A DNA stretch of 13,632 nt from Paramuribaculum sp. (lineage in GTDB: Bacteria > Bacteroidota > Bacteroidia > Bacteroidales > Muribaculaceae): the NCBI GenBank assembly GCA_029051965.1, contig JAIDJZ010000258.1, positions 1 through 13,632 of the forward strand, given 5' to 3'. Made by a program: the position numbers and the translations under genes. The notes below the pieces were generated by a model. It was not told the origin of the DNA and searched no databases. It worked only from the letters and a program-made list of their open reading frames with translations. Shown here piece after piece: positions 12,655 to 13,632 of this stretch; position 1 is the first letter of the stretch, and the number at the start of each line of letters is the position of its first letter.

Positions 12655-13284
12655 ATCAAACAAAACTAATAGAGAGATGAAACGGATTTAGTTTAGCTGC
12701 GTGATGATTGCGTCGGCGCTGAGTTTTTTCAGCTGCAAGGATGAACCGGAAGGAAGAATTAAGCCACACACGTTCGCAACGACCATTAAGGATGCAAGAG
12801 AATTCTGGGTCTCCGGAGTAACCTGGAATGCAAGAATTGACAGTATCGAGATGAGCGACACTCTGATTGAGGGGAAGCCATATCTGCTGATGTTACGAAA
12901 CGGGCAGCGGACCAACGTGTGCATACGGGTGGAGCGTGACCGGATTTTCGGCTACAATCCAAATGACGGGTCGGAGTTTATGATGTATGATTTCAGCAAA
13001 AAACCAAGCAGGGAAGAACCATTAGAAGTCACTCTGTTTTTTGAGCATTTGGACGGCTCTGTAGAACCGTTGACGTATCATGCTGACTTCGACAATAAAG
13101 GCTATTGGGTATGGCTTGACGGAGATTTGTGGCCTGATGGTGTTTTTCACATGCTGAGTTATTTTGCTGAAACAGAAGAGAAATTAACACACCATAAGAT
13201 ACACTTTGTTAGTGAAGACGGAAGGTCTGTGATTACAGGCTATACTGAATATATGGGCTTTCATTCTTGTCCGTTAGTGATCTA

Positions 13285-13480
13285 AGAGAGTGTTTGAATT
13301 TAAACCGCGTTAACAGTAATACGCATGAAAGGTAGAAACTTCAAAATAATCCTGAGGTCTTTTTTGGCGCTTTCCGCCAAGTCTCATCAGTCGCATAGCC
13401 CGCTATGCTCCTTCTTCAACTCGCGAAATCCGCTCAAAAAATCCTCTCAGTCTTAATTTGATTTAAATTCAAACACTCTC
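13285..13480. mobile_element. 196-bp MITE-like element with TA target duplication
   Basis: Terminal inverted repeats of about 19 bp (13286-13304 with 13462-13480, GAGAGTGTTTGAATTTAAA) bound the element. It is flanked by TA at 13283-13284 and 13481-13482. Insert plus duplicated TA is 198 bp, a multiple of three, and removing it rejoins the host reading frame. Inside are a perfect 7-bp hairpin (GCATAGC-CC-GCTATGC near 13394-13409), a GGCG/CGCC hairpin, and imperfect complementary arms near CTGAG at both sides, so much of the element can fold. It is too short for a transposase, which fits a non-autonomous element. TA duplication is known in IS630/Tc1-mariner and some IS5-type elements; the family is not established here. 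Confidence 0.85.
13325..13456 (+). CDS. Small ORF inside the MITE-like element (doubtful)
   Basis: A 43-codon frame, ATG to TAA, covers most of the element interior and encodes a Ser/Lys/Phe-rich peptide (start MKGRNFKIILRSFLAL). It contains both internal hairpins, so it may be only a by-product of folded DNA. There is no promoter evidence and no recognisable family. It is listed because annotation programs may call it. Confidence 0.2.
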   Translation: MKGRNFKIILRSFLALSAKSHQSHSPLCSFFNSRNPLKKSSQS

Positions 13481-13560
13481 TATGAGCCTGAAATATGGTT
13501 TAACCACACGCATTCTTATTGCTACTCCTTCAGAGTGCCGGGGAAAGGCATAATGGAATA

Positions 13561-13632
13561 AGTAAGTGTTCAAATTTAAACGATAGTAAGTGAACGAAAA
13601 TCTTTTATACAATCTGCTGCTTCTTTTCTGCC
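13561..13632. mobile_element. End of a second, related mobile element (partial, runs off the right edge)
   Basis: The first 21 nt from 13561 match the left end of the 196-bp element at 17 of 21 positions (from 13285) without gaps, including GTGTT and AATTTAAAC. It is also preceded directly by TA (13559-13560). This marks a second insertion by the same kind of element into the tail of lipoprotein copy 3. Only 72 nt are visible, so its size and class are unknown. Confidence 0.6.
13576..13632 (-). CDS. Possible C-terminal end of a transposase (partial)
   Basis: On the minus strand an open frame enters from the right edge and runs 18 codons (GRKEAADCIKDFRSLTIV) to TAA at 13578-13576, within the presumed terminal repeat. 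A transposase ending just inside the terminal repeat is common in insertion sequences, so this may be an autonomous relative of the 196-bp element. The visible peptide is too short to assign a family. Confidence 0.3.
   Translation of the reverse strand, partial: GRKEAADCIKDFRSLTIV

Follow-up and report, generated by a model that had tools for sequence, protein, structure and literature searches.

The window, i.e. the whole stretch of 13,632 nucleotides of Paramuribaculum sp. DNA that was analysed, carries close to its right end the third copy of a duplicated lipoprotein gene, into which a small mobile element is inserted. The features of this locus are the following:

12677–13558, forward strand: lipoprotein gene copy 3, broken by a stop at codon 5 and a MITE, then followed by a second MITE at 13561
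13283–13285, no strand: left flanking triplet TAA, 3-bp TNA target duplication
13286–13480, reverse strand (the hairpin module reads inward on this strand): MITE of family F1, 195 bp
13286–13304, forward strand: left terminal inverted repeat (TIR), 19 bp, perfect, exact GAGAGTGTTTGAATTTAAA
13366–13434, reverse strand: subterminal hairpin module of 69 nt, its start 46 bp in from the right end
13394–13407, no strand: inner 5-bp stem and tetraloop of the module, with compensatory changes between genomes
13462–13480, reverse strand: right TIR, 19 bp, perfect, exact GAGAGTGTTTGAATTTAAA
13481–13483, no strand: right flanking triplet TAT, its third base unlike that of the left triplet
13561–13632, forward strand: left part of the second MITE, which belongs to family F2 (ends AGTAAGTGTTCAAATTTAA) and is truncated by the window end

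A sequence-only reading of this DNA had placed an element of 196 (to 200) bp with inverted ends of about 19 bp at 13283–13482. The inverted ends were indeed found there as perfect 19-bp TIRs, which are part of a pair of 29-nt arms with 86% complementarity, but the element measures 195 bp. It has no transposase gene and its longest internal frame is of 43 amino acids. As DNA, the predicted fold of the element lies 6.9 s.d. below that of 200 dinucleotide shuffles, and as RNA 7.4 s.d. below that of shuffles; since the fold is so far below the shuffles and the element recurs at six other sites of its own genome, a chance origin was dismissed. These six copies, detected by DNA search, cover 197 to 200 of 202 bases with 92–96% identity, and were accompanied by a further copy at 78% identity and by many partial or contig-end copies. 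The assembly of this genome (2.30 Mb, 442 contigs, 88% complete) is often broken at repeats of this kind. Shortened F1 copies of 103, 100 and 77 bp retain both ends. The window element is thus a MITE with two TIRs, dispersed copies and no transposase gene, and this part of the analysis is firm.

The 43-codon frame had been noted in the window element. An ORF of at least 38 codons is present at that place in only 36 of 72 elements, 27 of these 36 belonging to the own genome and its nearest relative, and a conserved 43-codon peptide was rejected. Two copies in other surroundings were recorded. At L009/L016 (G000:C253), an F3 MITE is nested within an F1 MITE with TTA on both sides. At L007 (G000:C232), only 4 bases separate the end of an F1 copy from the start codon of a tRNA thiouridylase-type gene (Pfam tRNA_Me_trans), the start of which is present in 31 of the 34 genus genomes.

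The fate of the lipoprotein locus was followed by DNA search in the 34 genomes of the genus, where it occurs in the own genome and in the nearest relative, G020, only. The gene of G020 is 97% identical to the window copy and is continuous across the insertion point, without the F1 element; the empty site expected in a relative therefore exists. The uninterrupted translation of the G020 gene (...CPLVI-x-EPEIWFNHTHSYCYSFRVPGKG...) is in agreement with the predicted rejoining of CPLVI to YEPEIWF and then VPGKG, except for one residue: the relative reads CPLVI-x-EPEIWF...VPGKG. The possibility that the 195 bp are ordinary coding sequence of the lipoprotein family, to which the 43-codon frame of the window copy could lend some credit, is already refuted by this empty site in the orthologous gene. 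F1 copies also sit in unrelated places, and this reading now has practically no chance of being correct.

The insertion had been called in frame. The element plus one triplet does amount to 198 bp, but the insertion opens with a stop triplet, and the gene has its codon-5 stop besides. The latter (12689–12691) is separate from the MITE, and the copy of the relative is uninterrupted. No Pfam or NCBIfam match was obtained with the longest remaining frame of copy 3. The G020 gene also lacks the second MITE at 13561 and the codon-5 stop; as all three are missing from the sole relative with the locus, their order is not fixed, contrary to the dated order of events initially claimed. The exact target site was claimed as well, and the G020 gene is indeed intact at that point, but its three bases match neither TAA nor TAT of the window. 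Given this and the mismatch between the two window triplets, the duplication is not proven by the window copy alone. Seven own-genome sites were queried in G020. At L003 and L005 the aligned region lacks the element, with 74–80% identity and gaps right at the site; at L024 both flanks map close to G020 contig ends, which would fit a shared insertion; no match was obtained in that genome for the remaining four.

The flanks had been described as TA dinucleotides. TA is present on both sides of the window element, but the repeat of the family is longer. When ends were paired across the fetched loci, 97 F1 pairs were obtained, of which the 94 longer than 60 bp were tested. The flanking triplets are identical in 64 of these 94 pairs and unequal in 30, for a shuffled mean of 32.8 and a maximum of 47 in 10,000 shuffles; the pairs are not all independent, as related genomes may share insertions. 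Among the pairs with TNA on both sides, 64 of 78 are identical, and the commonest flanks are TTA/TTA (33) and TAA/TAA (28 of 97 pairs). The target duplication of F1 is a 3-bp TNA, and a TA duplication was rejected on the identity of the TNA triplets. In the related family F3 (ends GAAACTGTTTAAATTTA), triplets are identical in 13 of 21 pairs, a value matched by 130 of 10,000 shuffles. F1 and F3 are alike in sequence beyond the hairpin module, so they are not independent families. F2, unlike F1, does look TA-flanked: identical triplets were found in 0 of 9 pairs and TAA..TTA in 7 of 9, that is TA outside an A..T pair, and a TA stands at 13559–13560, left of the second MITE. Allowing at most 2 mismatches, 59 F2 end sites were counted in the own genome; many lie close to the ends of contigs, so that F2 probably breaks the assembly.

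The spread of the F1 family was then delimited. In the genus, 10 of the 34 genomes, own included, gave matches at E <= 1e-5 in a DNA search, this figure including G002 (shared centre only) and G009 (ends only); G020 has 27 matches to the MITE. The many copies with both ends that a BLAST-type search was expected to return are thus represented by the six other near-full copies and by these genus matches. A widespread Bacteroidales MITE, as suggested initially, is not what the exact TIR indicates. It is patchy in the family, with 23 of 397 Muribaculaceae genomes (own included) in 6 of 30 genera, and none of the 392 other genomes sampled from the order has it, only 5 of those 392 belonging to the same family. 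The reversed control pattern gave 0 wherever counts were shown, in the family and in the order. A scan of named genomes with the exact TIR returned at least 113 stretches, whose titles are Bacteroidales-type or, once, just 'bacterium'. The MITE was not found in phages, and in plasmids only its 43-bp core was detected, in two Prevotella nigrescens records.

To account for the movement of an element without its own transposase gene, DDE_Tnp_1 was searched over the ten genus genomes with MITE matches. In G009, a different species of the same genus, an IS5-family element of 891 bp (G009:C41) carries perfect 19-bp TIRs identical to those of the window MITE and an open transposase frame of 259 amino acids with DUF4096 and DDE_Tnp_1 (NCBIfam IS5 NF033580, 182.6 bits for a cut-off of 110). 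It stands between the triplets TAA and TTA. No match to this transposase was found in the own genome at E <= 1e-6, in an assembly 88% complete and in 442 contigs. A decayed DDE_Tnp_1 relic of the own genome (L031) was discarded as the parent because no pair of ends of F1, F2 or F3 was found to surround it, and a search with PF13586 yielded only matches below its cut-off. In G001, two contig ends carry an F3 end and, next to it, 38 C-terminal residues with 66% identity to the G009 transposase. At L085 (G020:C196, 1235–1710), half an F1 MITE is cut inside the hairpin, with a decayed IS5 transposase directly after.

Members of the IS1031 group are described as preferring TNA and giving a 3-bp repeat (PMC12016507). 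We infer that a transposase of the G009 type, or a relative of it missing from the assembly, mobilised the window copy. An IS5-family (IS1031-type) transposase recognising GAGAGTGTTTGAATTTAAA would move the MITE in trans and insert it at TNA with duplication of 3 bp; the IS1031-type label is suggested by the TNA target, the transposase being placed in IS5 by Pfam and NCBIfam only. Landing in the duplicated lipoprotein gene would have occurred after the split from the nearest sequenced relative, unless the element was lost in that relative.

The internal folding arms noticed at the outset are present, and they proved to be a conserved module common to other elements. Despite their differing TIRs, the elements of F1, F2, F3 and other loci have a middle that reads CRGTCR-[hairpin]-CTCCY. 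The pairing of its stem was tested without bias in the F1 and F3 alignments, for which elements were chosen by TIR. Across 72 distinct F1 elements picked solely for their TIRs, 353 of 355 cells of the 5-bp stem are paired, compared with a mean of 266.7 and a maximum of 286 in 1,000 shuffles, and its pairs 2 to 4 vary as AT 46/GC 24, AT 39/TA 32 and TA 39/AT 32. The F3 stem is paired in 94 of 100 cells (shuffled maximum, 85). Beside the F1 stem lie conserved mismatches, namely three TC/CT doublets with each position kept in 66 to 70 of the 72 rows. Between the doublets lie paired positions, one of which switches between AT (33) and GC (31) with 7 rows unpaired. On the inward strand, the F1 doublets read as three tandem 5'-GA/3'-AG motifs, a kind of motif that forms sheared G.A pairs. 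All three tandem mismatches are conserved in F1 and in F3, the families for which they were counted; by eye, not all three are evident in elements outside these families (e.g. L066, L219, L329).

A broader alignment, A1, holds 39 of 52 representatives, after removal of 11 with cores of 15 or 16 nt, one with N and one other; seven chance-looking cores had been removed beforehand. As anchor letters and pairing were the criteria by which A1 was chosen, the invariant letters it shows, and some of the pairing, arise by construction. Predicted folds are more stable on the inward strand, in 39 of 39 modules for RNA (mean of −24.9 vs −17.0 kcal/mol) and in 36 of 39 for DNA. Rfam gave no match above gathering (best E of 1.2, far below its gathering score); a hammerhead or C/D-box RNA, which CTGATGAG-like letters on the inward strand could have indicated, was rejected for want of such a match. 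Within F1 alone there are three main stem alleles, and others exist elsewhere. F1 and F3 share the main stem allele in G000, G020, G005, G006 and JAAVGE, and differ in G004, G001 and SCEG. Could the sharing in five genomes come from conversion between families, or from a host factor?

The position of the module was assessed with a covariance model, R1, built from 39 modules, against which the window module, itself in the model, scores 82.2 bits. In loci outside its building set, the model finds an inward-facing module at both ends of two IS5-family elements of G014, L079 and L087, and at both ends of three shorter, probably decayed elements, L109, L115 and L116, the left match of L109 being weak (E 0.042). 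Some of these two-ended loci had been seen earlier by letter pattern. In the five elements, the distances from module to end are 46/46, 46/47, 49/46, 46/46 and 46/46. A module was found at one end of L120, L110 and L092, at 46, 46 and 48. The same spacing is held in the MITE families: the module lies at 45–47 in 69 of 78 F1 elements (none in 8, at 78 bp in one), at 45–46 in 18 of 21 F3 elements and at 45–46 in 4 of 5 F2 elements. Of the 82 model matches with E <= 0.01, 70 were entered in an offset test, after exclusion of the window, of truncated matches and of those repeating a place or sequence already present; 66 of the 70 were distinct and had sufficient flank. Many of these 66 are F1 copies like those in the model. 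In 48 of them a TNA with G after it lies at exactly 46 bases outward from the module, and each of the other offsets from 34 to 57 occurs 0 to 4 times. MITEs of about 310–366 bp with one module per end, like fused IS ends, were observed at L066, L074 and L180. On comparative grounds, the module is regarded as a real, conserved and position-locked structure.

Outside the family, the two P. nigrescens records carry a module at apparently the same place (E 2.3e-9 and 2.3e-8). Its inner stem has two unpaired positions, and neither inverted ends nor TNA-G at 46 were found; for these reasons the pair is a relic or lies outside any element. A 200-kb sample of one P. nigrescens replicon holds one more module (E 9.5e-6); inspection by eye puts it 47 bases from a GGCAGGTTC.. 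end, opposite which stands a similar end in inverted orientation. Further queries with the module, three against plasmids and one against phages, returned nothing. In viral-database contigs, 13 pattern matches included only two with a paired hairpin, and a further pattern gave four contigs, two already known and two without a model match. The viral contigs L313 and L320 carry the module, L313 having AGTAAGTGTTGG-like letters where an end is expected. Relatives of the G014 (L079) transposase were not confirmed in viral contigs; in plasmids they amounted to 1958 records, all under 60% identity.

The module could simply be a functionless remnant of the ends of a parent IS, with its pairing inherited and its stems swapped as blocks by recombination. 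The common F1 and F3 allele in the five genomes listed above and the likeness of the two families in flanking sequence are compatible with such an origin. It accounts poorly for pairing that is almost complete across the three main stem alleles of F1, for L116, whose two ends carry different stems in the same architecture, for the different F1 and F3 alleles of the other three genomes, and for a spacing of about 46 bp held across elements with different TIRs, and we consider it rather unlikely. The module would instead be a folded cis-acting end signal. That one strand is the stable one speaks for a single-stranded form, and we think an inward structure of this kind, either read-through RNA or single-stranded DNA, more probable than a protein site on double-stranded DNA. 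Its symmetric presence at both IS ends argues against a mere 5' leader of the transposase. Not every IS of the group requires the module, as the 891-bp element of G009 gave no match to it, nor did the IS elements of G031.

Two forms of such a signal were rated about equal. IS10 and IS50 are protected by RNA structures that form on read-through transcription. By analogy, read-through from either side of the element could yield a folded RNA by which expression of the transposase, or of the element, is blocked. The lower energy of the inward RNA strand in every module examined would suit this role, as would the location of one L079 module, which separates the end of the element from the beginning of the transposase frame. 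L079 carries its other module at the transposase-distal end, and transcription running inward from there gives antisense RNA; the want of an Rfam match also counts against an RNA, so that this insulator is retained as a tentative possibility. At the DNA level, a cruciform or single-stranded hairpin could be bound by the transposase or by a host factor in transposition or replication. This would agree with the symmetric location at both ends of five IS elements, 46–49 bp from the tip, and with the preference of the DNA fold for the inward strand, but F1 MITEs have spread with a module at one end only and the 891-bp IS does without it; the DNA form is, taken singly, on the unlikely side.

For the window, an IS5-type MITE presumably mobilised in trans, inserted at TNA and bearing at one end a module that would act as a folded cis-acting end signal is an explanation in which we have high confidence. 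The general proposal, namely that IS5 elements of Bacteroidales carry an undescribed inward-facing, single-stranded end module that controls transposition or expression and is kept in their MITEs, is advanced as a conjecture more apt to fail than to hold.

REPINs are known to form hairpins. Like the F1 MITE, they are small bacterial mobile repeats without a transposase gene (PMC3116915). The F1 MITE differs from them by its TIRs, its target duplication and the DDE type of its presumed transposase. ISLrh, of the IS1031 group, resembles the G009 IS in length (857 vs 891 bp), in a TIR starting with GA and in TNA with a 3-bp repeat, but its host is Lacticaseibacillus and its 17-bp TIR is different; the passage describing it mentions no subterminal module (PMC12016507). 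The closest systems are the MITEs of Porphyromonas gingivalis (MITE239, MITE700, MITEPgRS/464 and BrickBuilt), which are described as having IS5-type TIRs (PMC4596501). The resemblance covers a Bacteroidales host, short TIRs matching those of IS5-family ISs (e.g. GAGACTGTTGCA of ISPg4 and MITE464), about 10–20 copies per genome and the nesting of MITE in MITE, whereas the TIR sequences differ, the target duplications of BrickBuilt are unequal in length and sequence as against the 3-bp TNA of F1, and BrickBuilt and 464/PgRS, unlike the F1 MITE, are reported to hold tandem repeats (PMC4596501). Among the literature titles and abstract openings listed, ISfinder being outside the scope, no description of a Muribaculaceae MITE or of a subterminal IS5 hairpin was found. 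As IS5-derived MITEs are known in Bacteroidales, the window MITE in itself is one more of a known sort. What would matter is a module common to elements with several clearly different ends, from one gut family to Prevotella, and the covariance model finds the elements that bear it and indicates where they end. The usual picture of a DDE insertion sequence is that of two short TIRs and a gene; a folded signal at a fixed distance inside the ends would, if true, add to this picture a new requirement or control point.
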